From Candidatus Raymondbacteria bacterium RIFOXYA2_FULL_49_16 (GTDB lineage: Bacteria; Fibrobacterota; OXYB2-FULL-49-7; XYB2-FULL-49-35): 45,950 bases of DNA. Shown piece by piece: positions 16,849-33,136 of the stretch (the stretch's first letter is position 1; the number at the start of each line of letters is the position of its first letter). The position numbers were made by a program, and so were the translations under genes. The notes below the pieces were generated by a model, which made no database searches, was not told the origin of the DNA, and worked only from the letters and a program-made list of their open reading frames with translations. The stretch covers positions 1 through 45,950 of the forward strand of contig MFYT01000055.1 of NCBI GenBank assembly GCA_001789205.1, in the 5' to 3' direction.

Positions 16849-18900
16849 CTATTTCAGCAGTATCAGCTTCCTGGACTGGACCAGATTTCCCGCCCGCAAC
16901 GCGCAGAAATAGACCCCGCTTGGCAGTTGTGAGGCGTTCCATTCAATCTGGTGCGGGCCTTTTCCCATTGCGCCGTGTACCAGCGTCTTGACTTCCTGGC
17001 CAAGCGCGTTATATATCTTCAGTGTCGTGAACTGTTGCTTTGGCAGGGAATACTGAAGGGTCGTACGCGGGTTAAAAGGATTGGGGAAATTTTGGTTAAG
17101 CGCAAACCCTGGTCTCTGTGAAACAAGCGCCTGCTTGCTGGTCGAGGGCTCGGGCAGGGGCCTGCGCCAGATACCATTGTTCTTGGTGCCAGCGAAGACA
17201 TCAATCCCGTTGACGAATATGCACTGAACATTCAAATCCGCAAGGCCCGTGCTCCAGGCGTCCCAGAGCGCTCCTTCATTTTCAGAATAAAATACGCCGG
17301 TCCCTGTTGCCGCAAAAACCATTTCATCGACAGCGGCAACAGCCGTGACCCAGGTATTGGAAAGACCGGTGTTCGAAACATTCCAATCCTCGCCATTGTT
17401 CGTTGAAACATAGACACCGTCCCACGAGCCAGCGTATATGCGCGTGGCATTTGCGGCAAATGACGAGACAGTTGCGGAGGGTCCGTCGTTTACCGTGGTC
17501 CAGGTGGCGCCATTGTCCAGGGAGTAGGCCGCGCCATCCGACGTGCCTGCAAGCAGCCGCGTGCCCTCGTAGGAAAGTGCGCTTATCTCGGTACTCGAAA
17601 GACCGTCACTTCCCAATGACCAGTTTGTCCCGCTGTCGGTTGAAAAATAAACGCCATCAGAGGTGCCAGCATAAAGGTCCGTACCCTTTACTGCAAGACA
17701 GTTAATCCAATATCCTTCAAGATCGCCGCTGAGTATCTCCCACGAGGCGCCATTGTCCGTGGATGTGAACACCCCGGACGAGGTCGCGGCAAAAAGGATT
17801 GAATCAAGGGCGACAATGGAAAGAACTGTGTAGTCGGTGATGCCATTGTTGATGGCCAGCCATTCACCAGTCCCATCGGTATATTCAAACACACCGCTGC
17901 CCCACGTTCCGGCAAAAAAGGCGCTGCCAAGAGCGGCAATAGTGCTGACAGAGGCATTGGCAATGCCGTCGCTGGATCGGGTCCAGCCAAGGCCGTCCGC
18001 ATCATACACATACACGCCGCCGCCCCACGAACCAGCGTAGAGTACAGTATCGCTAACAACAAGAGCGTGCACATCGGTGTTCACCAGATCAGCGCTGATA
18101 AAGGTCCAACTGGCGCCGCTATTCGAGGTCTGATACACGCCAAAAGGGGTCCCAATAAAAAGATCACCCCCCTCCACAGCGAAACAATAGACCATGGAGC
18201 TGGGCATGCCGGTATTTGCCTGCGCCCAGGAGCCGCCATAATTGTCGGAACGATAGACACCGCCGCCAAACGTGCCGGCAAGTACATATGTGCCATTTGC
18301 CGCAAAACATCGAACGTCAGAGTGCGTAAGCCCCGAACTGGACGCTGTCCAAAGAGCGCCGTTGTTTGTGGACTTGAAAATCCCACCGGAAGTGCCAGCA
18401 AAAAGTACAGTATCGAACAGGGCCAAAGCGCGTACAGTCTGACTGATAAGCCCGGTACTCGACAGACTCCAGTTCGATCCGCTGTTGGATGACACATAGA
18501 TGCCGCTATTTGTCCCGGCAAACAGCTGTGTGCCTTTTTTTACCAACGCATTGATCGTGGTATTGGCGAGACCATTTGAGGCGGAAATCCAGCTTAGACC
18601 GCCATTATCAGACCGGTATATGCCGTCTGTGGTTCCCAGAAAAAGGAGCGATCCATCCGAGAGAACGGCTTGTATCGTGGAACTTCCCAAACCAGTATTG
18701 GCCTCGGTCCACACTGTGCCATTGTCAGACGATATAAAAAGGCCGTTGCCATCTGTGCCCGCAAGAAGATCTGTGCCGCTGAGGCCAAGGCAATTGATGA
18801 ATCCAGCATATGGGCCATTTGCCGAACTCCACTGTGCCTCTACGGCCGCCACTGCAAGGAACAGAAACACAGGCATAAGGACACGTTGATATTTTTTCAT
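16849..18900 (-). CDS. Asp-box double beta-propeller protein with type IX sorting domain
   Basis: A 683-residue secreted protein. After a signal peptide (about 1-22) come 13 clear Asp-box (BNR) motifs of the form S-x-N/D-x-G-x-x-W, for example SSDNGTVW, STNNGALW and STDSGTNW, spaced about 40-45 residues. A degenerate final one makes 14, enough for two seven-bladed propellers. The last 80 residues are a type IX secretion sorting domain: NFPNPFNP, YSLP, LKIYNALGQEVKTLV, LPSGVYF and a final KLILLK. Such proteins are exported and attached to the cell surface or released. The ribosome site AAGGAGAG is strong. Sialidase-like catalytic residues were not seen, so binding is the likelier role. Confidence 0.85.
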   Translation of the reverse strand: MKKYQRVLMPVFLFLAVAAVEAQWSSANGPYAGFINCLGLSGTDLLAGTDGNGLFISSDNGTVWTEANTGLGSSTIQAVLSDGSLLFLGTTDGIYRSDNGGLSWISASNGLANTTINALVKKGTQLFAGTNSGIYVSSNSGSNWSLSSTGLISQTVRALALFDTVLFAGTSGGIFKSTNNGALWTASSSGLTHSDVRCFAANGTYVLAGTFGGGVYRSDNYGGSWAQANTGMPSSMVYCFAVEGGDLFIGTPFGVYQTSNSGASWTFISADLVNTDVHALVVSDTVLYAGSWGGGVYVYDADGLGWTRSSDGIANASVSTIAALGSAFFAGTWGSGVFEYTDGTGEWLAINNGITDYTVLSIVALDSILFAATSSGVFTSTDNGASWEILSGDLEGYWINCLAVKGTDLYAGTSDGVYFSTDSGTNWSLGSDGLSSTEISALSYEGTRLLAGTSDGAAYSLDNGATWTTVNDGPSATVSSFAANATRIYAGSWDGVYVSTNNGEDWNVSNTGLSNTWVTAVAAVDEMVFAATGTGVFYSENEGALWDAWSTGLADLNVQCIFVNGIDVFAGTKNNGIWRRPLPEPSTSKQALVSQRPGFALNQNFPNPFNPRTTLQYSLPKQQFTTLKIYNALGQEVKTLVHGAMGKGPHQIEWNASQLPSGVYFCALRAGNLVQSRKLILLK

Positions 18901-18933: not shown

Positions 18934-20484
18934 TTATTTCAGCATAGTCATTTTCACAATCTTCTTATACTTGCCCGCTTCAAACACGGCAAAATATAGT
19001 CCGGAAGTAACCTGTTTTTTGTCCGCGGCCGTGCCGTCCCATTGTACCGAATACCTGCCGGCTTCCCTGGCCTCATTGACCAGGGTGACAATTTCCCTGC
19101 CACGCACGTCAAAAACCTTGAGCATCACCCGGCTCTCTTTAGGTACCTGGTACTGTATGGTCGTGAACGGGTTAAAGGGGTTTGGTACGTTCTGGCCAAT
19201 GGCGTATTCTAGCGGTGAATCCACACTCTTGTCGCCATACGAAAAGGCAATGACCGTTCCCTTGATTGTCTGAACAACAAACCGGTCTTTTGCCGCAACC
19301 AGGGGCACGGTCACATAGTCGCCAAGCATGGTCTCGTTTTCAAGCTCGCCAGTTTCCCTGTCAATCTTGACCAGCAATCCTTTTCCAATACAGGCAATAA
19401 CGCCCGATGCCGTAAAAACCGGGTCCGCATTGAACATATATGGTGTGTCATCGCAGATACGGACATATTCGCAGAGTGTCTTTCCCGTTGCCGCATGCAC
19501 GACTAAAATCCGGTATTTTGCACGAGCGTCAAGGCCTGTTTCGCGAACTACGATGGCTGCGCTACCCTGGTCCATTGTCCAACCGGACATATAGGTTTCG
19601 CCCAGGGGAATGAAAGCTGTATTGAAATTGGAGACACCCTTGAAAAGCGCGCTTTTTCCCAAAATTTTCCGGAACGCCTGGTTGCGCACATTGGGCCGCA
19701 AATTTACCGTTTCTTGGAGTTGCTCAAGATCATAATCTATCTGGTTAGCAAAGGTGCGGGACCAGGCAGAGGAAACCGCTTTAAAAAGACCTGGTTCCGC
19801 CCTAATGCACGAAACCCTGTTAGCATATCCAGAAGGCGCTAGGAGAACATTGGCGCCAGCAACTGCAATGGATTTGCCTAAAAATGCCCCTCCTACGGAC
19901 GGTACAAGCGTATCTTCAATGTTTCCTGATGCAAGACTGACCCGGCAAACCTGCCCCCTGAGCGTGCCATAAATGAGAAAACGGCCCGATACCAGAGGCG
20001 CGGCAAGCACTGGATCTGAAAGGGGCAGCATAAGAAGAGGCGATCCATTCACAAGATCAAAACCCCAAATGCCGGGGTTTGGTTCACCCGTAGCGCAATA
20101 CACCCCATTGCCGGACAAAACAGGCGCGGAAGGCCGTCCTGACACGCTCCGCTGTTCCCAGACAATCTGACCTGTTGCCGCATTAAGGGCAAAAAGACTT
20201 CCCGCTGTTCCTGTGAAAACGACCATATCATTGGCATATATGGCAGCACCTTCGGGTGCAACCGGGGTTTTTACATGGGCAATCTGCTGACCTGTGGCCA
20301 TGTCCCTTGTTTCAAACGCATTGCTTCGCACAAGGAGAAGATTTGCACCAGCCAATACCGGGTACGACTCGCTCGATCCTGAAAATCTCCAACACTGCTG
20401 AAATGCGGAACCAAAAAGACTGGATGCCATGAAAGACCCCATAACCATAACCAGAACCATAAAAACGAGTGTCCTTTTATTCAT
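18934..20484 (-). CDS. PQQ-like beta-propeller protein with type IX sorting domain
   Basis: A 516-residue secreted protein with signal peptide (about 1-26). Residues 30-420 carry PQQ-like propeller blades, for example GSLFALNAATGQIVWEQ and VHAATGKTLCEYVR, built like the non-enzymatic BamB/PQQ repeats. From about residue 425 it has a type IX sorting domain (QNVPNPFNPFTTIQYQVP, VMLKVFDVRGREIVTLV, VTSGLYFAVF) ending in KKIVKMTMLK. It starts 12 bases after the stop of the giant protein, with GGGAGGG ahead of the ATG, so the two are one transcript. The giant's own C-terminus is also a PQQ-like propeller but has no sorting domain. Substrate or partner unknown. Confidence 0.85.
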   Translation of the reverse strand: MNKRTLVFMVLVMVMGSFMASSLFGSAFQQCWRFSGSSESYPVLAGANLLLVRSNAFETRDMATGQQIAHVKTPVAPEGAAIYANDMVVFTGTAGSLFALNAATGQIVWEQRSVSGRPSAPVLSGNGVYCATGEPNPGIWGFDLVNGSPLLMLPLSDPVLAAPLVSGRFLIYGTLRGQVCRVSLASGNIEDTLVPSVGGAFLGKSIAVAGANVLLAPSGYANRVSCIRAEPGLFKAVSSAWSRTFANQIDYDLEQLQETVNLRPNVRNQAFRKILGKSALFKGVSNFNTAFIPLGETYMSGWTMDQGSAAIVVRETGLDARAKYRILVVHAATGKTLCEYVRICDDTPYMFNADPVFTASGVIACIGKGLLVKIDRETGELENETMLGDYVTVPLVAAKDRFVVQTIKGTVIAFSYGDKSVDSPLEYAIGQNVPNPFNPFTTIQYQVPKESRVMLKVFDVRGREIVTLVNEAREAGRYSVQWDGTAADKKQVTSGLYFAVFEAGKYKKIVKMTMLK

Positions 20485-20496
20485 AGCGTCCCTCCC

Positions 20497-23400
20497 TTAC
20501 TGCTCTGGGTAACAGTAGACAGTACTGTCACCGCTAAAGTAAACATTGTTCCAAAAAGCATCGGCAGCCACACGCGAAGCATTTGATCCATTGAACACCG
20601 CGGTGGGGAATCCATTCGCATTCGCTCCGGTAGTTGCATTGACAGCGTAATGCTTCTTGTCCGCTGAACTGAAATACACCGCTGAGCCTGCGGTCACCGG
20701 ATTGGTGGTCACAGCGCCCGCCGTGGTATAAGTCCAGAGCACCGACGATGATGTAGTGTCGTCGCGCACGTTTTTGACCTGACTGCCTGTAGGACAGTAG
20801 AGATTGCGCGTACCCGAGGACCAATAGGGTGAGGCTTCCTGCACCGCGCCAAGGTTCCTGGACCATGCGGGTGTGGATGTCAACACTGAATCATACGCAA
20901 AGAGCGTGATGTTCTTTGGCGCAATATACAAATGTTTTAGCGTTGTTCCCCAGGTCACCTTAGTGTTAACGGAATCGCTGCCAGTGTTCACGCTGGTAAG
21001 GGCGCCCCCACTTATGTCATACCGGTGCACGTCGCCATCTGAGCAGCCAATATAGATGTGTGTACTTTGTGTTGCAATGGTCGATTTATAGCTGGCGTTC
21101 ATGGAACGTGTCCATGTGGTGCCGCCGGTCTGCGTGTCGATCTTTTTTACGTCTCCATTGCTCAGCGGAACATAGGCATATCGATCATAATTAGTTCCAT
21201 CCGGAGGATAGGAAAGCGATGGTTGTCCGCCAACAGCACCCAATGGCTGCGCAGCATAAAAAGGTGTATACGTCGAAAGATAGTCGTGGCCTGCATAGAA
21301 ATCACTTCCAACGCAATAAACGAGTAACGCGTAGCAGGGAGATGGGGTGTTCCAATCAAAATAGTATGCAATGGCCGAGGGGACCGATGCTGTGCTGTAG
21401 TCCCACCGGTAATTACCCTGGTAATCGAGACAGACAATGCCTGGATTTACACCACCCACGGCAACATACATGACACTATCCCCAATTGAAATAGAGGAAG
21501 CATAGTTTCCTTCTCCCAGGTTGTAGGTCCACTTGGGTTTGGTCTTGCTGGTGCTGTCAAACACCGCGTTTGCAACAGGCGTCACCCCAATCGCAGTCCT
21601 GTTCACCTTCATCCATGAGATAAAGGTCTGTGGCGCTGGACCCGTGGGATTGCGCTGGTAAATACTGAAATAATCGCTGGGGACAGACGAGAGCACTTCG
21701 GCCGAGGTCTTCTGCTGAATAAAGGGGATAATGCGCACAGTGTCGCAATCGCCCAAATCGCTGAAGGGAACACGGATTTCAGTCACATTGCCTGAAAGCG
21801 TGATAGTACCATTGAAAGTGAGAGGGCTGTAATCCGCAGCAGCGTCCAGGAGGCCATAATCAATGCCGCTATGATAGTAGAACAGGTAATCAGCGCCGCT
21901 AAAACCCGAAGAAAGCACATGCCGTCCAAACGACCCATAGTTATACGTTGTATCAGTGCCCGATGTTGTAGTGCTCATATAGATAAACAAGTCGCCGGCT
22001 GTACTCAGGTCACGTCCGTTCCAGACAAAGTAGTAATTATCATTGTCCCAGGTAACGTAGAATTCTTCGCTGCCCCGTGTATCGAGCCGTTCATCGGTCG
22101 CGCTCCATTCAGTCAGGTTCGCGGTCAACGTCTTTGCGCTCGGGGTATTGGTGGTCGCGTCAATCGTGCCGGTCGATGAGGCGAGCGGGAAAACTACGCC
22201 ATCGCCCGCGATTCTAACGGAATCGTTTGCCGCTGAATCGCGCGCAATGACACTCTGCTCCGAGGAAAGGGTCAGCTTGATTGACGATGAAGGCGACCCG
22301 ACAATGTCAAAACGTACGTCGAGTGTGTCCGACAGGCCTGGTCTAAGATAGACAGGACTGGCGCTCAGGTCAAAGACCATGGGATTGGCGGTTTCAATGG
22401 TCCCGCTTGTATACAAATCACTGGCCTCCCCTTTTCTGCGCAGGGCCTTTCTATCAATAACCGCTGAAGGATCGGACAATGGTGTGGTGGACACAAGCAG
22501 CTTGATAATGCTTTTTGTCAGGCCACTGGGGTTTGGATGGCGGATAATAATCCGGAGGCCGGGCACATCTGTCGCGTACTCAGCAAGTGTGTATATGGGC
22601 ATAATATCCGCGGTTTTAACCATGAGCGAATCAAGCTCTGTCTGGAAGTTCCACCCGGTATTGCCCGTGCTGTCGTCCGAATAAATCGCGTTGCCCGCAG
22701 TCCCAATTGCCTTGGAATTCTTGATCATGGCATACTGGGCGTTTAATGTCCCAGTCACATTGAGCGTACACGGCTGGGTTGACAGCAGGTTCAGGTAATT
22801 GGAAATCTGTCCGTTAAAAACGCCATTGCCCGCAATGGTAATTTTCCTGTTTTCGAGATTTGCCAGCGATGAACCTGTACCGGAAGTTATGGAGAAATTT
22901 CCGCCGCTGACCGTTGCAATGTTCCGGCCATTGAGGTCCAATGTTCCTGCTGTTTGTGAAAAACTATTCGCGATCAATGAGTTGGTTGAAAGCTGCAGAG
23001 TCTGGCTTCCCGTATGACTAATGGCCGGATGGGTTTGGCCTGACCGGGGAACAAATACCTGTGTGCCCGATGTGCCGGTAAACCTGAGTGTCCCAGTCGC
23101 AGGTGTCAATGTTCCCAATGAATTCAGATCAATGGACGTACCCGACACCTGAAGGATACTGCTGCTGAAATTAAGATTTCCAGAACCCGACACGCCTGTT
23201 ACTGTGTGTGTAAAACCAGTACCCAAGTTACATGTTCCAGAATTAATAGTCAGGGTCGAGGCAATAAGCGCGTTGGTTGATATAGTCGTTGTACGCGCGG
23301 CATCCATGCTGATATCAATGGCTGGAAAGGTAGCGCCCGAACGCGGGTAAAAGGTCTGATTACCCGCAATACGGGTGAATTTCAGCGTACCAGAGCCCGC

Positions 23401-26400
23401 GGTTACAGGCAGGTTCCTAAAATCAGCATTACCATCGGTTACCTGGAGCGTCGAGGTATTAAATGAAAGATTGCCTGCAACAGCCCCTGAAAGGCTGACC
23501 ACCGAGTGTGTCAATCCTGTGCCCAGGTCAAACGTACCGCTGGTAATGGTGAAGGCATTGCTCAGGATAAAGGCATTGGTTGAAACAGTTGTACCGCCTG
23601 ACCCGTTCTGGGTTATCCGATACATGGTTGCGCTGCTCTTTGGCGTAAAGGTCTGCGGTGAGGAGCCGGTAAAAATAAGTGTCCCTGTCCCTTCCGTAAC
23701 ACTGTTAAAAGACCCTAAATTTACGGTTGTACCGCTGACCTGGAGCGTTGAGGACCCAAAATCAAGGTCACCGCTTCCCAATACATTGGTAACTGTGTGA
23801 ATAAGACCTGCGCCAAGACCCAGGCTCCCGGATGTTATTGTGAGGATGCCAGCGCTCAGGTTATTGGTCGAAATGGTTGTGCCTCCGCTCCCGTTCTGCT
23901 GAATCGCTGGAAAAGTTCCAGTACCTGGATAAAAAGTCTGAGCTGTGGTGCCGGTAAAGGCAAGCGTGCCGCCAGAAGCGGTAAAGGCGCCTCCTGAACG
24001 GAAATCACCCAAACCAGTGATGGTCAGTGTATTACCGCTAGAAAAAACAAAAGTCCCGGTATACGCGCTGGTGAAAATGACTGCTTTTACTGTTGCGTCA
24101 ATATTCAGCGTACAATTGCCAACATAGCTCCCGCCAAAACTGATGGTATCAGTTGCACTAGGAAGCGCATCGTCTGTCCAATTCGCCGCTGTCCCCCACT
24201 TGTTGTCCGCCCCGCCGCCGTCCCACTCCTTGGTCTGAATAAACGACCAGTTGATATTGCCCGTGCTGTCTGCGCAGCTGCGCGCAATGCCGGTTGGCCC
24301 CACTGCCACATTATTTTTCAATGCCGTGTATTTGGCATTGAGCGCACCCGTAACCGCAAGCGTGCAATTGGTGGCTGTTTTAAGATCAATGTAATTGAGG
24401 CTCTGTCCCAGGAAATTGGCGTCACCAGCGACTGTGATCTTGCGGCCCGCAAAATTGGCAAAACTGGCGCTGGTGCCGTCTGAAACCGCGAAATTACCGC
24501 TGTTCACAATGGCAATATTGACACCATTCAGATCAAGGGTACCCGCTGTCTGCGAATAGCCATTTGCGGAAAGCGCGTTTGTAGCAAGTCGCAACGTATC
24601 ACTTCCTGAAAGCAGGATGGCAGGATGAGTGCCGCCGCTTTTGGGAGTAAACACCTGCGCCCCAGACCCGCCGTCAAACTGCAGCGTACCAGTGCTTGGA
24701 GTCAGGGTCCCGATTGAGCTGAAATTTATCGAAGCGCCTGTAACCTGGAGCGTACTGGTATTGAAATTCAGGTTGCCAGAAGTAGCGGACACGTTTGTTG
24801 CTGTATGGGTAAATCCAGTGCCAAGGTTTAATGTTCCCGAGGTAAGGATAATGTTGGAGGTATTCAAGGCGTTTGTTGTTATGGTTGTTGTGCGCGTGGC
24901 GCCCATTTTTATTTCAATTTCAGGGAATGCCGCCCCTAACCGCGGATAACATACCTGGTTTGCCTCGCCATTGCTGAAGGCAAGTCTTCCAGTACCTGCC
25001 GTGACTGGAAGATTACGAAAATCCCCATTACCCGCAGAAATATCGAGCGTCGATGAACCAAAGGAGAGGTTTCCGGCAACCGCGCCTGATATGCCCGCGC
25101 CAATGGTATGGGTAAGCCCGGTTCCCAGGTTAAACGCGCCGCTTGTTACCGTAAGCGCGTTGGTAAGAGTCAGTCCGTTTGTGGATACCGTGGTTCCACC
25201 AGACCCATTCTGGGTGACTTTATAGAACGAACCGCCACTCTTTGGCGTAAATGTTTGGGACGATGTGCCGGTAAAAATCAAAGTACCTGTTCCGGAAGTA
25301 ATGGTCCCCATGGAACCAAAATTAATTGTCGCGCCCGTGGCCTGGAGTATCGAAGATCCGAAATTAATGTCGCCAGACCCATAAAACTCGATGATCGTAT
25401 GGGTAAACCCTGTTCCCAAGGCAAAAGAGCCTGATTTAATATTCAACTGCTGGGCCGACAAGCTATAGCCGTTTATTGTTGTACCGCCAGAGCCATTCTG
25501 GATGACATCGGGATACGTGGCACCTGACTTTGTCGTAAATATCTGTGGAGAAGAACCGGTGAATTCAAGGGCACCGCCAAGCATTTGTATTGTACCACCT
25601 GTAGTAAAATCAGCATTGCCCGCGACCTTTAGAGTATCGGTTCCATAAAAAACAAAAACGCCAGTATACGATGTATTAAACAATATCCCAGCAACAGAAG
25701 CCGTTGTGTTTAGTGTGCAATTGCTGACACTAGTGCCATTGAAAATGACCGTGTCGTCGGTTGCTGGCAGTTCATCATTGGTCCAATTAGCAGCCGTGTT
25801 CCATTTCCCATCCCCACCGCCGCCATCCCATTCCTTGGGAATGGAAAAGCCCCAATTGGTATTGCCCATGCTGTCAGCGCTATTATAGGCAACGCCCTGC
25901 GATCCGCCCGAGGCATTACTGTTCTTTATCTGCGCATAGTTTGCGATAAGCGCGCCGGTCACCGAGATCCACCAAAGGGAACTCCCTTTCAGATTGAGCA
26001 GGTTACCCTCTTGGCCATTGAGCGAAGCCGCGCCCGCAACGGTCAATGAACAGCCGGCAAGATCCGCGAAACTCGTAGCAGTGCCGTTGGTAATTGTATA
26101 ATTGCCGCTGTTCACGGTTGCAAAATCAAGGCCGTTTGGGTCAAAGGTACCAGCGGTTTGAGAAAAAGAACTGGCTGAACAATTATTTGTGGAAAGCCTG
26201 AGCGTATCGCTGCCAGAAAGAACAATTGCAGGATGCGTTCCCCCTGCTTTAGGGACAAAGACCTGTGCACCGGAGCCGCCGATGAATTTCAACGTTCCTG
26301 TTCCCGGAGTGAGAGTAGTGACAGAACCAAAATTCGCTAAGGTCCCTGAAATTTGAAGCGTACCAGTATTAAAATCAATATTGCCCGCGCCTGAAATCCC

Positions 26401-29400
26401 GCCAATTGCATGGGTCAAGCCAGCGCCCAGGTTGAGCGTTCCAGACGTCAAGGTGATTGTTGGGGCAACAAGCGCGTTGGTCGCAATGGTTGTGGTCCTG
26501 GTCACTGCCATGGCGATATCTATCGCGGGAAAGGTAGCGCCCAAGCGTGGATAAAATGTCTGGTTACCCGCGGTACGGGTAAATTTCAACAGGCCTGTCC
26601 CGGCGGAAACCGGCAGGTTCCTGAAGTCGCCGTTTCCATCGGTCACCTGCAGTGTCGAAGTGTTGAACGAAAGCGTGCCCGCAACCGCGCCCACAACACT
26701 ATAGGCAGAATGGGTAAGCCCGGCGCCAAGGTTAAAAACGCCGCTTGAAACCGTAAACGCATTGGTCACCGTAAGGGCATTGGTCGAAACCGTGGTTCCG
26801 CCGCTGCCGTTTTGCGTAATGCGGTAAAAACTGCCGCCGCTTTTGGGCGTGAGTGTCTGCGGCGACGTTCCGTTTAATATCAGCGTTGCTGTTCCTGGCG
26901 TCAATGTCCCCATTGACCCGAAATTCACTGTTGCCCCGCTTGCCTGGAGCGTGGATGCGCCCAAATTTATATCACCCGCGCCCGAAATATTGGTTACCGT
27001 ATGAGTAAAACCACTGCCCATATTCAAGGTTCCGGAAGTGATGGTCAACTCTCCAGACAAAAGACTGTATCCGGAAATGGTTGTGCCTCCGGCGCCATCC
27101 TGGATAATCGCGGGAAAAGTTGACCCTGATTTGGGGGTAAAGGTTTGCGCGGACGCGCCGGTAAACTTTAGCGCGCCTCCAGCCGTCACAATTGCGCCGC
27201 CTAATCTGAAGTCCGCGTCTTCAGTGACTGTCAACGTCTCCCCTGCTGTAAAAACAAATATTCCCGTATAGCCTGAGGTGAACAACATGGATTTGACCGT
27301 GGCCGATGTATTGAGTGTGCAATTGCCGGTATAACTATCGTCAAAAGTGACCGTATCGTTTATTCCCGGAAGAATGTCATTGCGCCAATTAAGGGCATTG
27401 CTCCACACGTTATCGCCGCCCTCCCCGTCCCAGACCTTGCCTGCCATGAAATTCCAGTTCACATTGCCCGTGCTGTCGTTGCTGTTGCGCGCTGTGCCCG
27501 CAGCCACCGAAGCTGTGCAATTTTTCAGCGTCACATAATTCGCGACAATACTGCCAGTACTGGCGATTGCCCAGGCGGAACTGCCTTTAAGATTGACTAA
27601 ATTGCCCGATTGCCCGTCGATGGAGGTTGCGCCCGCGACCGTGATTGTGCGACCGCCCACATCCCTGATGCTGGCTGTGTCACCATTGGTAATAGTGAAA
27701 TTTCCGCCATTCACTGTTGTCACATTAAGACCATTTAGGTCGAATGATCCTGCGCTCTGAGAAAATGAATTAGCGACAAGCGGATTGGTATAGAGTTTGA
27801 GCGTGCTAGCACCGGTGTGCGAGATGGCTGGATGGATAATGCCAGTTGGTCTTGGAGTAAATGTCTGGTCGCCTGAGGCACCGGTAAATTGGAGCGTGCC
27901 TGTTCCGGCTGTCAGCGTGCCAATTGACCCGAAGTTTATCGTCGTACCTGAAACCTGCAGGGTGCTGGTGTTAAAATTAAGGTTACCTGCGCCTGAAACG
28001 CTGACAACCGAATGTGCAAGGCCCGTTCCAAGATTAATGGTTCCCGAGGTGACGGTCAAATTTCCGGCCGATGCCAGGGCATTGGTTGAAAGAGTCACGA
28101 TCCGGATCGACCCCATTTTAACTTCAATTTCAGGGAATGTAGCGCCCGATCGCGGATAAAAAGTCTGGTTTGCCCCTGTCCGGGTAAATACGAGTTTTCC
28201 TGTTCCAGGTGTGACCGGAAGGTTCCGGAAATCAGCGTTGCCATTCGACACCTCGAGCGCCGAAGTATTAAACACAAGTGTGCCTGTCACTGCACCCGCA
28301 ATGCTCGCGACCGAATGGGCAAGACCTGTTCCCAGATCAAAGGACCCGGAAGTGATGGTAAGCGCATTGCTGAGCGTAAATTCATTGGTCAAAACAGCTG
28401 TTCCACCCGATCCATTCTGGACGATACGATAGAGGGTCGCGCTGTTTTTCGGAGTAAATGTTTGCGCTGATGTTCCTGTAAAAGTTAGTATGCCTGTACC
28501 CTCTGTAAGGGTCCCCATGGAACTAAAATCAGCAGTGGCGCCTGTGACCTGGAGAATGGACGAGCCAAAATCAAGGTTGCCTGCGCCGGATACTGTGGAG
28601 ACCGTATGTGTGAGTCCAATACCAAGAGCAAAAGTTCCGGAAGTGATCGTAAGCGTCCCGGCTGTCAGGTTTGACGAAGATATGGTTGTACCGCCTGTGC
28701 CATTCTGGACAATGGCAGGGAATGTACCAGTGCCTGGATAAAACGTCTGCGCAGAGGATCCGGTAAAAGCCAACGTTCCACCCTGGCTCTCAAACGTACC
28801 GCCCGATCTGAAGTCGCCATTGCCTGTAACGGTAAGTGTGTTTCCTGTTTTAAAAACAAAAATGCCTGTATAGGGGCCGCCATACGCCGAGGTAAAAAGC
28901 ACCTCTTTCACGGTTGCATCAACATTCAAGGAACAGTTGCCTGTATAATTTCCCCCAAAACTTATCGTGTCGTCTGGTCCGGGCAGTTCATCGTCCGTCC
29001 AATTCGCGGCAGTACCCCAATAATTATCGCCAGCATCTCCATCCCACTCTTTTGTAATGATAAAAGACCAGTTGATATTCCCGCCGCTATCCGCACAAGT
29101 GCGTGCAAGACCGGTTTGCACCGAGGCGACATTATTTTTGAGTGTTGTATATTTAGCGTTGAGCGCGCCAGTGACCGCAAGCGTGCACCGGGTTGCGGGA
29201 TCAAAATTCAAATAGCTTATGTCCTGGCCCAAAAAATTCGCGTCGCCTGCAACGGTTATCTTACGGCCGCCAACATTGGCAAGAGTGCCGCTGGTCCCGT
29301 TTGTGATTGAAAAATCGCCGCTGTTTACGGTAGTGATATTTTTTCCATTTAGGTCCAAGATGCCGTTTGTCTGGGTATACCCGTTGGTGATAAGGGCAAA

Positions 29401-30429
29401 TGTTGAAAGCCGTACCGTATCAGCACCCGAGACAACAATGGAAGGATGCGTGGCACCGTTCTTAGGAGTAAAAACCTGCGTCCCAGAACCGCCAATGAAT
29501 TCCAGCGTGCCAGTACCTTGCGTAAGCGTGGTGATTGACCCGAGGTTGACCGAAGTACCCGATGTCCGCAGTGTACTGGAATTGAAATTCAGGTTGCCTG
29601 AGCCGGAGATATTCTGAACAGTGTGTGTACGGCCCGTGCTCAGATTCAATGTACCGGATGAAATAGTAACATCAGTTGCTATCAGGTCGTAGGTAGAAAT
29701 TGTCAATGAACGCGTAGCACCCATTTCAAGCACAATATCGGGAAACGTCACTGAAGCCCGGGGATAAAAAGTCTGGTTGCCCGCTGTGTCCTGGAAGCAA
29801 AGCGCGCCAGAGCCGGCCGTAACGGGCAGATTGGTAAATGTGGCATTTCCAGCAGTCACAATAAGCGTTGAGATATTGAACGAAAGATTCCCAGTCACCG
29901 AACCAGTGACGGATTGCACTTTGTGCGTCAACCCGCTCCCCAAGTCAAACGTACCAGTGGTGACAGTCAGGGCGTTGCTGAGGTACATAGGATTATCTGA
30001 AATAGTCGTACCGCCAGCGCCATACTGTGTGACCCGGTAAAGCCCCTCGCCCGCGTTTGGAATAAATGTTTGCGCCGCAGTACCGGTAAACCGGAGCGTA
30101 CCTGTATTGCCGGCAATTGTCCCGCCAGTCCTTAGGTCAACATCACCGGTGACAGAAAGCGTACGGGCTGCGAATTTAAAAGCGCCAGTATAATCTGATG
30201 TAAAGGTCAGCTTGCCGACTGACGCTGGCGCCACGTTCAGACTGCATTCTTTGGCCGAAGAATCGAAGCGTATGGTATCGCCCGCAACAGGCGCGACCCC
30301 GCCAACCCAGTTGCTTGTATTGTTGTAAAAGTTGTCACTCCCGCCGCCGCTCCATCGCTTGGTGGTTGCAAACAAGGGAACCACGGCAAAGATCATAATT
30401 CCTACGACAATGTGACGATAATTGGCCAT
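20497..30429 (-). CDS. Giant modular secreted protein (3310 residues)
   Basis: A predicted surface or extracellular protein with a signal peptide (MANYRHIVVGIMIFAVVPLF). Residues 24-2596 hold five tandem modules, each opening with a K-x-W-D/S-G-G...W...NW...P..DTI.F block and continuing with 90-residue sub-repeats rich in G, T, S and N (for example TLTPGTGTL, QNGSGGTTIS, DLGTGLTHTV), which suggest a long beta-helix. Residues 2597-2960 contain a DUF-like and a CBM9/DOMON-like domain (FYVTWDNDNYYFVWNGRD). Residues about 2960-3310 form a PQQ-like propeller. No type IX sorting domain is seen at its end, unlike the next two proteins. An upstream in-frame extension of 34 codons was rejected: the ATG at 30429 has AAGGAGG five bases away. 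Possible adhesin or shell component. Confidence 0.85.
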   Translation of the reverse strand: MANYRHIVVGIMIFAVVPLFATTKRWSGGGSDNFYNNTSNWVGGVAPVAGDTIRFDSSAKECSLNVAPASVGKLTFTSDYTGAFKFAARTLSVTGDVDLRTGGTIAGNTGTLRFTGTAAQTFIPNAGEGLYRVTQYGAGGTTISDNPMYLSNALTVTTGTFDLGSGLTHKVQSVTGSVTGNLSFNISTLIVTAGNATFTNLPVTAGSGALCFQDTAGNQTFYPRASVTFPDIVLEMGATRSLTISTYDLIATDVTISSGTLNLSTGRTHTVQNISGSGNLNFNSSTLRTSGTSVNLGSITTLTQGTGTLEFIGGSGTQVFTPKNGATHPSIVVSGADTVRLSTFALITNGYTQTNGILDLNGKNITTVNSGDFSITNGTSGTLANVGGRKITVAGDANFLGQDISYLNFDPATRCTLAVTGALNAKYTTLKNNVASVQTGLARTCADSGGNINWSFIITKEWDGDAGDNYWGTAANWTDDELPGPDDTISFGGNYTGNCSLNVDATVKEVLFTSAYGGPYTGIFVFKTGNTLTVTGNGDFRSGGTFESQGGTLAFTGSSAQTFYPGTGTFPAIVQNGTGGTTISSSNLTAGTLTITSGTFALGIGLTHTVSTVSGAGNLDFGSSILQVTGATADFSSMGTLTEGTGILTFTGTSAQTFTPKNSATLYRIVQNGSGGTAVLTNEFTLSNALTITSGSFDLGTGLAHSVASIAGAVTGTLVFNTSALEVSNGNADFRNLPVTPGTGKLVFTRTGANQTFYPRSGATFPEIEVKMGSIRIVTLSTNALASAGNLTVTSGTINLGTGLAHSVVSVSGAGNLNFNTSTLQVSGTTINFGSIGTLTAGTGTLQFTGASGDQTFTPRPTGIIHPAISHTGASTLKLYTNPLVANSFSQSAGSFDLNGLNVTTVNGGNFTITNGDTASIRDVGGRTITVAGATSIDGQSGNLVNLKGSSAWAIASTGSIVANYVTLKNCTASVAAGTARNSNDSTGNVNWNFMAGKVWDGEGGDNVWSNALNWRNDILPGINDTVTFDDSYTGNCTLNTSATVKSMLFTSGYTGIFVFTAGETLTVTEDADFRLGGAIVTAGGALKFTGASAQTFTPKSGSTFPAIIQDGAGGTTISGYSLLSGELTITSGTLNMGSGFTHTVTNISGAGDINLGASTLQASGATVNFGSMGTLTPGTATLILNGTSPQTLTPKSGGSFYRITQNGSGGTTVSTNALTVTNAFTVSSGVFNLGAGLTHSAYSVVGAVAGTLSFNTSTLQVTDGNGDFRNLPVSAGTGLLKFTRTAGNQTFYPRLGATFPAIDIAMAVTRTTTIATNALVAPTITLTSGTLNLGAGLTHAIGGISGAGNIDFNTGTLQISGTLANFGSVTTLTPGTGTLKFIGGSGAQVFVPKAGGTHPAIVLSGSDTLRLSTNNCSASSFSQTAGTFDPNGLDFATVNSGNYTITNGTATSFADLAGCSLTVAGAASLNGQEGNLLNLKGSSLWWISVTGALIANYAQIKNSNASGGSQGVAYNSADSMGNTNWGFSIPKEWDGGGGDGKWNTAANWTNDELPATDDTVIFNGTSVSNCTLNTTASVAGILFNTSYTGVFVFYGTDTLKVAGNADFTTGGTIQMLGGALEFTGSSPQIFTTKSGATYPDVIQNGSGGTTINGYSLSAQQLNIKSGSFALGTGFTHTIIEFYGSGDINFGSSILQATGATINFGSMGTITSGTGTLIFTGTSSQTFTPKSGGSFYKVTQNGSGGTTVSTNGLTLTNALTVTSGAFNLGTGLTHTIGAGISGAVAGNLSFGSSTLDISAGNGDFRNLPVTAGTGRLAFSNGEANQVCYPRLGAAFPEIEIKMGATRTTTITTNALNTSNIILTSGTLNLGTGFTHTATNVSATSGNLNFNTSTLQVTGASINFSSIGTLTPSTGTLQFDGGSGAQVFTPKSGGTHPAILLSGSDTLRLATNALSANGYSQTAGTLDLNGVNIAIVNSGNFAVSDGTSASFANFAGRKITVAGDANFLGQSLNYIDLKTATNCTLAVTGALNAKYTALKNNVAVGPTGIARSCADSTGNINWSFIQTKEWDGGGADNKWGTAANWTDDALPSATDTISFGGSYVGNCTLNIDATVKAVIFTSAYTGTFVFSSGNTLTITGLGDFRSGGAFTASGGTLAFTGTTAQTFYPGTGTFPAIQQNGSGGTTISTNNLSAGILTITSGSLGLGAGLIHTVTNVLGSGDLDFGSSTLQVSGTTVNLGSFNSVTEGTGTLIFTGSSPQTFTPKSSATMYRITQNGSGGTTVSTNAFILSNAFTITSGTFDLGTGLTHSVVSLSGAVAGNLSFNTSTLQVTDGNADFRNLPVTAGSGTLKFTRIAGNQTFYPRSGATFPAIDISMDAARTTTISTNALIASTLTINSGTCNLGTGFTHTVTGVSGSGNLNFSSSILQVSGTSIDLNSLGTLTPATGTLRFTGTSGTQVFVPRSGQTHPAISHTGSQTLQLSTNSLIANSFSQTAGTLDLNGRNIATVSGGNFSITSGTGSSLANLENRKITIAGNGVFNGQISNYLNLLSTQPCTLNVTGTLNAQYAMIKNSKAIGTAGNAIYSDDSTGNTGWNFQTELDSLMVKTADIMPIYTLAEYATDVPGLRIIIRHPNPSGLTKSIIKLLVSTTPLSDPSAVIDRKALRRKGEASDLYTSGTIETANPMVFDLSASPVYLRPGLSDTLDVRFDIVGSPSSSIKLTLSSEQSVIARDSAANDSVRIAGDGVVFPLASSTGTIDATTNTPSAKTLTANLTEWSATDERLDTRGSEEFYVTWDNDNYYFVWNGRDLSTAGDLFIYMSTTTSGTDTTYNYGSFGRHVLSSGFSGADYLFYYHSGIDYGLLDAAADYSPLTFNGTITLSGNVTEIRVPFSDLGDCDTVRIIPFIQQKTSAEVLSSVPSDYFSIYQRNPTGPAPQTFISWMKVNRTAIGVTPVANAVFDSTSKTKPKWTYNLGEGNYASSISIGDSVMYVAVGGVNPGIVCLDYQGNYRWDYSTASVPSAIAYYFDWNTPSPCYALLVYCVGSDFYAGHDYLSTYTPFYAAQPLGAVGGQPSLSYPPDGTNYDRYAYVPLSNGDVKKIDTQTGGTTWTRSMNASYKSTIATQSTHIYIGCSDGDVHRYDISGGALTSVNTGSDSVNTKVTWGTTLKHLYIAPKNITLFAYDSVLTSTPAWSRNLGAVQEASPYWSSGTRNLYCPTGSQVKNVRDDTTSSSVLWTYTTAGAVTTNPVTAGSAVYFSSADKKHYAVNATTGANANGFPTAVFNGSNASRVAADAFWNNVYFSGDSTVYCYPEQ
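22642..24231 (-). repeat. Module 5 of the giant protein
   Basis: This 1590-base (530-codon) block begins KEWDGGGADNKWG and is the last of five in-frame tandem modules. It ends at the WNFQ before the unrelated C-terminal region. Confidence 0.8.
24232..25836 (-). repeat. Module 4 of the giant protein
   Basis: This 1605-base (535-codon) block begins KEWDGGGGDGKWN. It has the same order of sub-repeats as the neighbouring modules but differs from them at many codon positions, so the duplication is old. Confidence 0.8.
25837..27438 (-). repeat. Module 3 of the giant protein
   Basis: This 1602-base (534-codon) block begins KVWDGEGGDNVWS. It matches modules 2, 4 and 5 in length to within four or five codons. 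Confidence 0.8.
27439..29052 (-). repeat. Module 2 of the giant protein
   Basis: This 1614-base (538-codon) block begins KEWDGDAGDNYWG and is the first full-length module. Confidence 0.8.
29053..30360 (-). repeat. Module 1 of the giant protein (short)
   Basis: This 1308-base (436-codon) block follows the signal peptide and begins KRWSGGGSDNFYN. It lacks about 100 codons, roughly one sub-repeat, compared with the other four and has the most divergent opening block. Confidence 0.75.
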
Positions 30430-30466: not shown

Positions 30467-30610
30467 TCAGTAATTGTTGATACTTTCGCCACCGCAACCT
30501 CCGTCCCACCCCACAGCGGTTTCCGGATCACGGTTTAAGCACTGGGCGCAACCTAATGCTTGCGTCTCGTAAATAAGATCTGACTCAACGGCCGGTTTCA
30601 GGTATTTCAT
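30467..30610 (-). CDS. Candidate RiPP precursor peptide, 47 residues
   Basis: This small ORF lies between the S26-like peptidase and the giant protein. The N-terminus MKYLKPAVESD contains YLKPAV, which fits the YxxPx(L/V) motif bound by PqqD-type recognition domains in lasso and related leaders. The C-terminal part is rich in Cys and Gly: GCAQC, then GWDGGCGGESINNY, with three Cys in all. It would be a substrate for the upstream radical SAM/SPASM enzyme guided by the PqqD-like protein. A start at 30658 adds 16 residues, overlaps the peptidase 3' end and has AGGGGA ahead; the start at 30610 lacks a clear site but best fits leader structure. The role is inferred from context and motif. Confidence 0.6.
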   Translation of the reverse strand: MKYLKPAVESDLIYETQALGCAQCLNRDPETAVGWDGGCGGESINNY

Positions 30611-30635
30611 TTTGGGCACGTTCAGGTATTTATTT

Positions 30636-31013
30636 CTATTTTTTGATGAGCCTCGCATACATTTCCCCTGTTTTTTTAAGTAGCCGTTTGAAAAAACCCG
30701 GATTTTTTATCTTGCGCACGCGGCCAAAAACAGCCTCTGGCGCAATTTCGTGTGGAAGTGCATCTATATTGTCTCCGTTCAAGCGCAACAACGTCCCGTT
30801 ATTCCCAAGCAGACGGTGCACTAAAAGCTGAGTGCCTATAAAATAAGCCACGATTTCACCAGGTCTGAGAGCGGCCGGGTCGGCCACAGGTTCAAGCGTT
30901 ACCTCGGCATTGTCCCTGATGACCGGGGACATGCAATATCCGCCTACCCGGACTGAGCAGGCTTGGTGTATTTTCATTTGCTCTGTTAAAAGTTCTTTCT
31001 GGTATTCACGCAT
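30636..31013 (-). CDS. Small S24/S26-like peptidase with Cys in place of Ser
   Basis: A 125-residue protein resembling the catalytic core of Sec11/SipW-type signal peptidases. The normal GxSMxP motif reads GYCMSP, with Cys27 (codon TGC at 30933-30935) where the Ser nucleophile should be. The His of the Ser/His dyad is kept in LLVHRL (His66), and the NGDNIDALPHE and VFGRVRKI blocks follow as in that family. No membrane segment is seen, so it may act in the cytoplasm, perhaps on the leader of the adjacent peptide. The ATG at 31013 overlaps the radical SAM stop by eight bases; an in-frame start 25 codons earlier lies within that gene. Activity is uncertain. Confidence 0.75.
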   Translation of the reverse strand: MREYQKELLTEQMKIHQACSVRVGGYCMSPVIRDNAEVTLEPVADPAALRPGEIVAYFIGTQLLVHRLLGNNGTLLRLNGDNIDALPHEIAPEAVFGRVRKIKNPGFFKRLLKKTGEMYARLIKK

Positions 31014-32067
31014 AGGTTGCCTCTGTATCCACAGGAGACTGAAGCCGCTGTGAAACACGGCCGCCGGTACGCTTGCGCGCCTGGGCAATGGACCGGGAAA
31101 TGGCCGCGCAACCTAAAAGATCGCCAGTCTCGTTAAACGACATGGCTGAACAGCGCGGACAGTACTTTTTAAGGTCGCAATCGCCGCAAAACACAAGATC
31201 ACGGACACGATAGGAACGCAGCTTCTCGAAAACAGGACTTTTTCTCCAGATGTGCCCGATTGGGGCTATGCGAATATTTCCTGCTTCAAGCTTCAAAGGA
31301 ACACAGGGAAATACCCTTCCCGTGCTTCCAATGGCGACAATATTCACTCCAGCGCCGCAGAGCCTGTTCCCCGGCATCTCAAGATACGACCTTTCGGGCT
31401 GGTGTACGCCCGGACGCGCAAAACGAGGTTCGGAAAAAACCTTGGCCAGGGAATTATGTCCAGGCCGTTGGCCTATTGGAGCGGCATTTCCGTCCCTACA
31501 GGGAAAAATAAATGGATCAAATGTCCATTCCAGGTCAAGGTCCTCAGCGACCTTGATGAGACTATCGTAGTCGCATTTGTTGGCGCGCATGAGATTGCCC
31601 TTCATTTTTACCCTGATACAGTGTTCCTTAAGCAACGCGATTGCGGCCATGGCCTTGGCAAAAGACCCTTTGACACCCGTAATGGAATCGTGTACCTGCG
31701 CGTTTGATCCATGGATACTCACTTCAACGCCTAACGGCGCAATATCGTATAAAGCGCGCGCATGTTCTCCTGATATCAAGGTAGCATTCGTGAAGACCAC
31801 CACGGCAAATCCCTTTTTCCGTGCGTCAGAAAGAATTTCCATGATATCAGGCCGCATAAAAGGTTCTCCGCCGGTAACCACAAGAATGAGCGTTCCCAAC
31901 CGCGCAAGTTCATCGAGCAGGACATTGATCTCTTTCCGCGTCAGTTCATCACGGGGCTTTGGCAATGTCTTTTCCCGGTAACAATGAATGCACCGCACAT
32001 TGCAGGCCATGGTGACTTCCAGATAGGCGATGACCGGCGTGCGCTTTTCCAGAAAATAGGCAATCAT
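31006..32067 (-). CDS. Radical SAM/SPASM peptide-modifying enzyme
   Basis: A 353-residue enzyme. The radical SAM cluster motif CNVRCIHC has Cys22, Cys26 and Cys29, followed by the SAM-binding GGEP at 66-69. The C-terminal SPASM region holds seven Cys: 237, 255, 294, 297, 303, 306 and 320 (CGDC...YCPRC), enough for two extra iron-sulfur clusters. SPASM enzymes install thioether, C-C or epimer links on ribosomal peptides. It follows the PqqD-like gene by five bases and overlaps the peptidase gene. The 47-residue Cys-rich peptide downstream is the obvious candidate substrate. Weak ribosome site, so translational coupling is likely. Confidence 0.92.
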   Translation of the reverse strand: MIAYFLEKRTPVIAYLEVTMACNVRCIHCYREKTLPKPRDELTRKEINVLLDELARLGTLILVVTGGEPFMRPDIMEILSDARKKGFAVVVFTNATLISGEHARALYDIAPLGVEVSIHGSNAQVHDSITGVKGSFAKAMAAIALLKEHCIRVKMKGNLMRANKCDYDSLIKVAEDLDLEWTFDPFIFPCRDGNAAPIGQRPGHNSLAKVFSEPRFARPGVHQPERSYLEMPGNRLCGAGVNIVAIGSTGRVFPCVPLKLEAGNIRIAPIGHIWRKSPVFEKLRSYRVRDLVFCGDCDLKKYCPRCSAMSFNETGDLLGCAAISRSIAQARKRTGGRVSQRLQSPVDTEATYA

Positions 32068-32072
32068 ATGTT

Positions 32073-32348
32073 TTAGGCCGCTATTTTAACCAGTATCTTC
32101 TTTTTGACCATCTCTTTTAAGAAAACCATAAGGTCAGTCTGGATTGTCTTCACCGGAGCTTCGAAGGCTTGGTGCATTTTATTCACCAACTCGTCTTTGC
32201 CGATTCCCCTGTTTCCCGCAGCCTCCCAAATGAAGGTGGCAGTCTGGTTAAGCTTGTGGATCCGTCTGTCATCAGGCGTAATCACCAGAGCTTCGTCCTT
32301 GTATTTCCGTGAAGCGCTTCTTGGATTCTGCTTTATCAGCTCTTTCAC
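32073..32348 (-). CDS. PqqD-like peptide recognition protein
   Basis: A 91-residue stand-alone PqqD-family protein, the RiPP recognition element that binds leader peptides and hands them to a radical SAM enzyme. The typical pattern is seen: ...IHKLNQTATFIWEAA near residues 30-44, then helices through KDELVNKMHQAF and IQTDLMVFLKEMVKKKIL. Its ATG overlaps the kinase stop by ATGA and its stop is five bases before the radical SAM start. The YxxPxV motif of the small peptide at 30467-30610 is the sort of sequence it would bind. Confidence 0.9.
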   Translation of the reverse strand: MKELIKQNPRSASRKYKDEALVITPDDRRIHKLNQTATFIWEAAGNRGIGKDELVNKMHQAFEAPVKTIQTDLMVFLKEMVKKKILVKIAA

Positions 32349-33136
32349 GCGATTTTCCTCCAGATGTTGTCGGTCTTCCTGAATTCAATCTCTTTTGTCG
32401 GGACCATAGCCACCAGATCAGAGGCGGCATTCAACAGTCGCTGGTTGGTCCCGCTGTTATTTTCAAAGTTCATTATTGATTGAAGCAAACTTGAGGCCAA
32501 GGCAATGGGCTTTGCCTCAACAACTCCGAAACGATTGCTTTTTACTAAACGGAGCACTGAAATAAGCTTTTTTCCCATATTTCGCCTGGGACCATTGCAG
32601 TGCCCCCAGAAAGGCGTACCAAATAAATAGTATTGGCCTTTGATTTTCCTGATAGCTGCCAATTCGTCCGTAAGGACAGTTTTGTCGACCCTTTCAGCCA
32701 TTTTTGACACAGTTGTCTTGCCTGCCTCAGAAGGGCCATAAAAAAGATAGGCGCCTTTATCATCAGCAATTGCAGCTCCATGCACCAGCAGACCATTAAA
32801 AATCGGAAGTACCTGTGAATATAGCAAACGGAGCGCCTGATCAAAAATCTTCAGGTCTCCGTTAAAATTAATCAACGCTTTCAAAGGAGCAAAACAGATC
32901 TTCAGGTCAAAACCGCGGCTGCTTAGGAAAACATTCTTTCCATGGCGTCTAAGGCATATCCCTGAAGGTCGATTTAAAAATTGACAACGGCTTTTCGAAT
33001 TAATACAAAAATCTAATACTGCTTTTTTTCTGGAAAAAAAGTCTTTATACTGGCTGAACAGTTTTTCACCAAGTGTTTTATTGTCACAAATTATTGAAAT
33101 TACGACAGAGGCGATTTCTATATTTTGTTTTATCAT
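32345..33136 (-). CDS. HPr kinase/phosphorylase-like protein
   Basis: A 263-residue protein related to the C-terminal kinase domain of HprK. The phosphate-binding loop GPSEAGKT is at residues 134-141, preceded by the LLVHGAAI strand, and VLTDELAAI and GTPFWGH follow as in HprK. Homologues of this type occur in lasso peptide and radical SAM gene clusters, where a kinase of this fold can phosphorylate a Ser of the peptide. It is the first gene of the cassette; its start lies in very AT-rich DNA and no Shine-Dalgarno is visible. The coding sequence looks more AT-rich than its neighbours, hinting at transfer. Substrate unproven. Confidence 0.82.
   Translation of the reverse strand: MIKQNIEIASVVISIICDNKTLGEKLFSQYKDFFSRKKAVLDFCINSKSRCQFLNRPSGICLRRHGKNVFLSSRGFDLKICFAPLKALINFNGDLKIFDQALRLLYSQVLPIFNGLLVHGAAIADDKGAYLFYGPSEAGKTTVSKMAERVDKTVLTDELAAIRKIKGQYYLFGTPFWGHCNGPRRNMGKKLISVLRLVKSNRFGVVEAKPIALASSLLQSIMNFENNSGTNQRLLNAASDLVAMVPTKEIEFRKTDNIWRKIA

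Follow-up and report, generated by a model that had tools for sequence, protein, structure and literature searches.

The window analysed here is a 45,950-nucleotide stretch of DNA that constitutes contig C55 in an assembly of 5.43 Mb, estimated to be 100% complete. Five minus-strand open reading frames, overlapping or closely spaced, lie within it. An earlier note, made from the sequence alone, had described these as a cassette encoding an HPr-kinase-like protein, a PqqD-like protein, a radical SAM/SPASM enzyme, an S26-like peptidase and a short peptide. All five frames were recovered as claimed in a check of the open reading frames and the gene identities were borne out (Table 1). The coordinates of the peptidase gene were corrected to a start at ATG 31013, giving an 8 bp overlap with the radical SAM gene. 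Elsewhere in the same genome, a second precursor and a second radical SAM gene are found on contig C78, and a second PqqD-like and a second kinase-like gene on contig C88.

Table 1 Features of the cassette and of the genes downstream of it, in window coordinates.
Feature	Position	Strand	Details
HPr-kinase-like protein	32345..33136	-	263 aa; motif H119 ... GPSEAGKT (134-141) ... DE (157-158)
PqqD-like leader-binding (RRE) protein	32073..32348	-	GTG start, 91 aa; PF05402 44 bits
Radical SAM/SPASM enzyme	31006..32067	-	353 aa; CNVRCIHC and seven C-terminal Cys
S26B/SEC11-like peptidase	30636..31013	-	125 aa from ATG 31013; His66, Asp81 conserved
Peptidase codon TGC	30933..30935	-	Cys27 at catalytic Ser position (GYCMSP)
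Precursor peptide	30467..30658	-	63 codons from ATG 30658; 47 codons from ATG 30610
Leader motif YLKPAV	30587..30604	-	fits YxxPx(L/V)
Predicted core CAQCLNRDPETAVGWDGGCGGESINNY (+ stop)	30467..30550	-	putative cut after ALG
Giant secreted protein	20497..30429	-	3,310 aa; next gene downstream; PQQ-like beta-propeller near C-terminus
PQQ_2 beta-propeller protein	18934..20484	-	downstream of giant gene; C-terminus resembling a type IX sorting tail (under the Pfam cut-off)
Sortilin/BNR-type propeller protein	16849-18900		type IX sorting tail; third consecutive propeller-type gene downstream of peptide

The peptide had previously been given as 47 residues long. That frame does open at ATG 30610, but ATG 30658, which has AGGGGA just upstream, is judged the more likely true start; the longer product gains an N-terminal extension containing Lys/Arg, as in relatives. 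The MKYLKPAV segment fits the YxxPx(L/V) leader motif, which the relatives share, and the three Cys residues reported for the peptide are indeed present, two within CAQC and one within a Gly-rich GGCGG. The window peptide matches relatives from other families at an E-value of 1e-5, and the residues conserved across distant relatives suggest that its frame is under purifying selection. No match above cut-off was obtained when the precursors were scanned against NCBIfam and Pfam.

The PqqD-like protein matched PF05402 well above the cut-off in a Pfam scan (2e-11). With a profile of its family, the closest solved structures were the lasso RREs TbiB1 and TfuB1; in lasso systems the YxxPxL motif is recognised by B1 proteins through its Tyr, Pro and Leu residues (PMC10368454). 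The radical SAM enzyme was likewise well above cut-off for both PF04055 (7e-22) and the SPASM family PF13186 (2e-7). It possesses the CxxxCxxC motif of a radical SAM/SPASM peptide maturase, as CNVRCIHC, together with the SPASM cysteines (Cys 237, 255, 294, 297, 303, 306 and 320), and the radical SAM set is closest in the PDB to SkfB, PqqE and other peptide-modifying radical SAM enzymes.

In Pfam and NCBIfam scans neither the kinase-like protein nor the peptide had a family above cut-off, and the similarity of the former to ScmC (15 bits) is barely detectable by sequence. A structural model of the kinase-like protein was built from three sequences (mean pLDDT 68.7, pTM 0.72). Searching with Foldseek returned HprK/P (1kkl, 1ko7, 3tqf) and PEPCK as the best matches at a probability of 1.00, with modest TM-scores of 0.2-0.55. 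Alignment of 18 relatives revealed H, S, G, K and T residues that are invariant or nearly so and a conserved DE pair. The window protein thus combines the HprK/P fold with H119, the P-loop GPSEAGKT and D157 E158, as would an HPr-kinase-like peptide kinase. This H / GxSxxGK[ST] / DE arrangement parallels the H / G / K-S / D-D motif of BsfK, in which the second acid of the acidic pair is Asp, unlike the Glu of the window protein.

The peptidase gave a weak S24/S26 match in the family scan. A profile of its family matched SEC11 and signal peptidase I, and a model of the protein (pLDDT 76) matched LexA-type and signal-peptidase folds. With SEC11 and type I signal peptidases the family shares this fold, the GxSMxP motif (in relatives), the His-Arg and Gly-Asp motifs and a small residue preceding the predicted cut. 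Unlike them, it is short, has no obvious N-terminal membrane anchor and would act on a substrate without a signal peptide. The window copy differs further in its catalytic residue. Of the Ser-His-Asp set of S26 peptidases (SEC11 type), the His and Asp are kept in an otherwise intact protein and the position occupied by Ser in 16 of 17 aligned family members is Cys27.

The earlier note had proposed looking in related genomes for the same gene order and for a conserved leader with a variable core; cassettes of the Fibrobacterota showed all three. Group A cassettes were sought with a profile of the kinase-like protein over 168 genomes of the phylum and by a gene-by-gene scan. The order kinase-PqqD-radical SAM-S26 was found at ten loci (L060, L062, L108, L109, L110, L111, L112, L114, L115 and L116) and, in part, at contig ends (L113 and L125/L117). 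Following the peptidase gene in each of the 11 readable Fibrobacterota cassettes (L125 included) is a small ORF with a YxxPx(V/I/L) leader and a variable Cys-containing stretch. A stricter leader pattern with a nearby Cys was present in 10 of the 11, compared with 0.6% of 3,015 control small ORFs under a comparable pattern. No copy was found in the one available genome from the same taxonomic order.

Group B precursors align with the window peptide. Six genomes of the Fibrobacterota, one of them that of the window (on C78), encode such a precursor, of the form YxPPxVExExxFExRALxCGKCRxGPxxQxACMxLPSxS; a seventh has a more divergent one (L118, G165), and there kinase and S26 genes adjoin the peptide gene. 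Weak matches inside long frames (G051, G023, G128, G076 and G094 among them) were left aside. In the Fibrobacterota the group B PqqD-radical SAM and kinase-S26 genes are often at separate places, and such split sets keep kinase and S26 paired (L119-L121, L123). Used as queries on the contigs of named genomes, the group B precursors identified eight loci, and among their matches were one record from the Planctomycetota (L132) and one from the Deltaproteobacteria (L133); no match was obtained with the window radical SAM enzyme as a query on such contigs. Searches around L132 and L133 covered 392 and 195 genomes, of which 16 and 12, respectively, had matches. All five genes are clustered in the Planctomycetota loci L132, L168, L169 and L170, in the order peptide-kinase-S26-PqqD-radical SAM, which differs from that of the window. 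Other arrangements were kinase-peptide-PqqD-radical SAM (L172), peptide-kinase-radical SAM-S26 (L181, L185) and peptide-kinase-radical SAM (L184). Group B, with the window included, spans the Fibrobacterota, the Planctomycetota and a deltaproteobacterium-like group.

Four gene trees agree in separating groups A and B and in placing the window with B (kinase 100/98, radical SAM 100/100, PqqD 99/96, peptidase 94/91). As the trees are unrooted, the window sits on the branch between A and B, nearest B by path. When other phyla were added to the radical SAM tree, group B and the window together formed one side of a branch with support of 100/100. The window cassette has the gene order of group A but group B-like sequences, on long branches.

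In 29 group B precursors that were compared, the distance from the leader Tyr to the first core Cys is 18 residues in 27 and 19 in two, a regularity that arises partly by construction, as a leader profile served to find the precursors, which are also non-independent. The window peptide is among those with a spacing of 18 residues. A small residue precedes the first Cys in 29/29 (Ala in 22, Gly in 4, Thr in 2, Ser in 1). At the C-terminus, 25 precursors have Ser, two have Tyr (the window and L185), one has Thr and one Val; Ser accounts for 6.4% of residues elsewhere in the core, yielding a naive P of 3e-26 for C-terminal enrichment with relatedness ignored. For many precursors only the leader was matched, with the alignment to the profile stopping at 34-42 of 54, and a C-terminal Ser was consequently not selected in these cases. 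The core of the window peptide differs from the near-invariant core of the group B Fibrobacterota.

A short precursor with a conserved leader and a distinct core, situated beside modification genes and kept in relatives, is what is expected of a RiPP. The presence and conservation of the cassette are well supported, and the conserved order, leader and variable core in relatives uphold the earlier proposal of a candidate new RiPP cassette. We consider it probable that the cassette serves, by a four-step scheme, to produce a peptide that is made on the ribosome and modified after translation, and that belongs to an undescribed family. As far as the libraries searched show, no named family or paper covers it; literature on the five-gene combination, sought in open-licence papers, yielded no description, which is not proof of absence.

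From the computed gene set, its recurrence, the leader, the boundary between a small residue and Cys, the C-terminal Ser, the folds and the catalytic motifs, we infer a series of reactions, their order and export of the product. The PqqD-like protein would first bind the YxxPx(V/L) leader and present the precursor. The radical SAM/SPASM enzyme would then modify the Cys-containing core, the product most likely being a Cys thioether or other crosslink involving the two Cys of nearly all members. In a third step the HPr-kinase-like protein would phosphorylate a residue with a hydroxyl group, which for most members would be the Ser at the C-terminus. Finally, the S26/SEC11-like peptidase would cut after the small residue, at AL[A/G]|C, to free a core that begins with Cys and is about 10-31 residues long; a boundary between a small residue and Cys fits a signal-peptidase-type cut. 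In the window copy the peptidase would need a Cys nucleophile.

Precedents for the kinase step exist among lasso peptides, whose precursors are phosphorylated at the C-terminal Ser by HPr-kinase homologues, as in paeninodin (PMC8498205). BsfK phosphorylates an internal Ser, aided by the PqqD-like RRE protein BsfB1, and at its site Thr could replace Ser and Tyr could not (PMC10368454). The C-terminal Ser of most group B precursors is suggestive of phosphorylation of the precursor by the kinase. The window peptide ends in Tyr, making the kinase target in this copy unclear, as is kinase action in group A, whose precursors have no regular C-terminal Ser.

Were the scheme true, the family would bring together leader binding, radical SAM chemistry, peptide phosphorylation and leader removal by a signal-peptidase-like enzyme, in groups of bacteria represented here almost entirely by metagenomes. 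Its precursors would predict a phosphate on the C-terminal Ser, an N-terminal Cys after cleavage and modification at two conserved Cys residues.

The peptide gene had also been placed upstream of a giant surface protein; this was confirmed, and the link recurs across phyla. Giant secreted or surface proteins of 970-3,310 aa, in some cases truncated where the contig ends, directly adjoin the precursor gene in the window and at L053, L055, L059, L133, L173, L181, L182, L184, L185 and L186. Beyond the giant gene, the window, L055 and L059 each have a further, separate gene for a PQQ-like propeller. At 12 of 28 precursor loci there is a neighbour of at least 900 aa on the same strand and no more than 150 bp away, against 11 of 265 sampled genes (4.2%) of the window's genome, a comparison in which the background comes from one genome and the precursor loci are non-independent. 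The giant neighbours, drawn from three phyla, are often proteins of Ig-like or repeat type, and many carry a PQQ-like or FG-GAP propeller close to the C-terminus. These observations raise the possibility that the matured peptide is a part or ligand of the adjoining giant proteins, with the kinase and radical SAM enzyme acting as maturases of a surface structure. The near-invariant core of the group B Fibrobacterota would also be easier to reconcile with one dedicated partner than with an antimicrobial, for which variation would be expected. However, propellers are common, and L118 and the complete clusters L132 and L168-L170 have no giant neighbour; we regard this explanation as possible but rather unlikely. 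The broader form, in which phosphorylated, radical SAM-modified peptides across phyla are each dedicated to a giant beta-propeller surface protein, as its ligand, cofactor or crosslink, and are not secreted metabolites, is put forward as a more doubtful speculation. For the present, the proximity of peptide gene and giant protein is treated as an unexplained association, and any functional partnership is suggested by association only; the recurring beta-propeller neighbours nevertheless form a concrete lead on function.

Other neighbours were also noted. Split group B genes adjoin genes that, judged by their sequence, resemble those for polysaccharide export, chain-length control or glycosyltransferases at L119, L120, L121, L123 and L053; the genes so placed are kinase-S26 pairs or the radical SAM-peptide pair of C78. 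Links to type IX sorting were seen at the split systems L119-L123. No gene was recognised as a dedicated exporter.

At two functional points the window copy is unlike the rest of its family, the Cys of the peptidase and the C-terminal Tyr of the precursor, and this counts against the scheme. Together with long branches in all four gene trees, these departures would fit a degenerating or repurposed copy, in which case the functional precursor would be the canonical one on C78 and the C55 set would have drifted. Against this, the five frames are intact and overlap or lie close together, and the cassette keeps the radical SAM and SPASM cysteines, the kinase P-loop and DE pair, and the peptidase His and Asp. 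Furthermore, no second peptidase of the S26 kind was found in the window's genome, so that the C78 peptide would also depend on the C55 enzyme. Drift of the C55 set is thus improbable in our estimation.

SynChlorMet (TIGR04248-TIGR04251) had been named as the nearest known arrangement. It is one of the named neighbours, and there too a kinase-like protein, a PqqD-like protein, a radical SAM/SPASM enzyme and a short protein share one cassette; it fails on scores, and for leader binding and the kinase the lasso system is the closest functional parallel. Scores for ScmC (15.1 bits against a cut-off of 125), ScmD (23.2 against 100), ScmE (122.3 against 400) and ScmF (95.2 against 400) exclude membership. 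The window cassette also differs in having an S26 peptidase and no precursor match, and in place of the two radical SAM/SPASM genes of SynChlorMet there is one in the window and in each related cassette shown. That the set is a divergent SynChlorMet cassette (ScmC, ScmD, ScmE/F and short proteins) and not a separate family is very improbable: several kinase-like relatives do have ScmC as their top NCBIfam match (45.7 bits for L108, 25.9 bits for L168) and ScmD, ScmE and ScmF also matched, yet all window scores fall far under the curated cut-offs, the S26 peptidase scored against no Scm model and the window radical SAM enzyme scores higher on AhbD, NirJ2 and others than on ScmE.

Lasso clusters with an HPr-kinase homologue (paeninodin PadeK, BsfK) share with the window the PqqD-like RRE, the YxxPx(L/V) leader and the HPr-kinase-like protein, and the residue phosphorylated in paeninodin, its C-terminal Ser, is that which ends most precursors here (PMC8498205). 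Unlike these clusters, the cassette contains a radical SAM/SPASM enzyme and an S26 peptidase, and nearly all members have at least two core Cys residues. When the five proteins of the cassette were scanned against Pfam and NCBIfam, none was found to be an asparagine-synthetase-like cyclase (C) or a transglutaminase-type B2 peptidase. The nearest solved radical SAM enzymes, SkfB, CteB and SuiB (sactipeptide/ranthipeptide and related SPASM maturases) and PqqE, have in common with that of the window the CxxxCxxC motif, a seven-Cys SPASM domain and a Cys-containing substrate; the separate RRE with a lasso-type leader, the kinase and the S26 peptidase set the cassette apart from them. PQQ biosynthesis was rejected, with PqqD (21.7 bits against 46) and PqqE (92.8 against 381) below their equivalog cut-offs, and assignment to lasso peptides or to a named radical SAM family was ruled out by scores or missing genes.

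Two loci hold more than one precursor gene. Two lie close together in tandem at L183 (7469-7985), and at L176 (82-4431) two flank an ORF of 1,261 aa.
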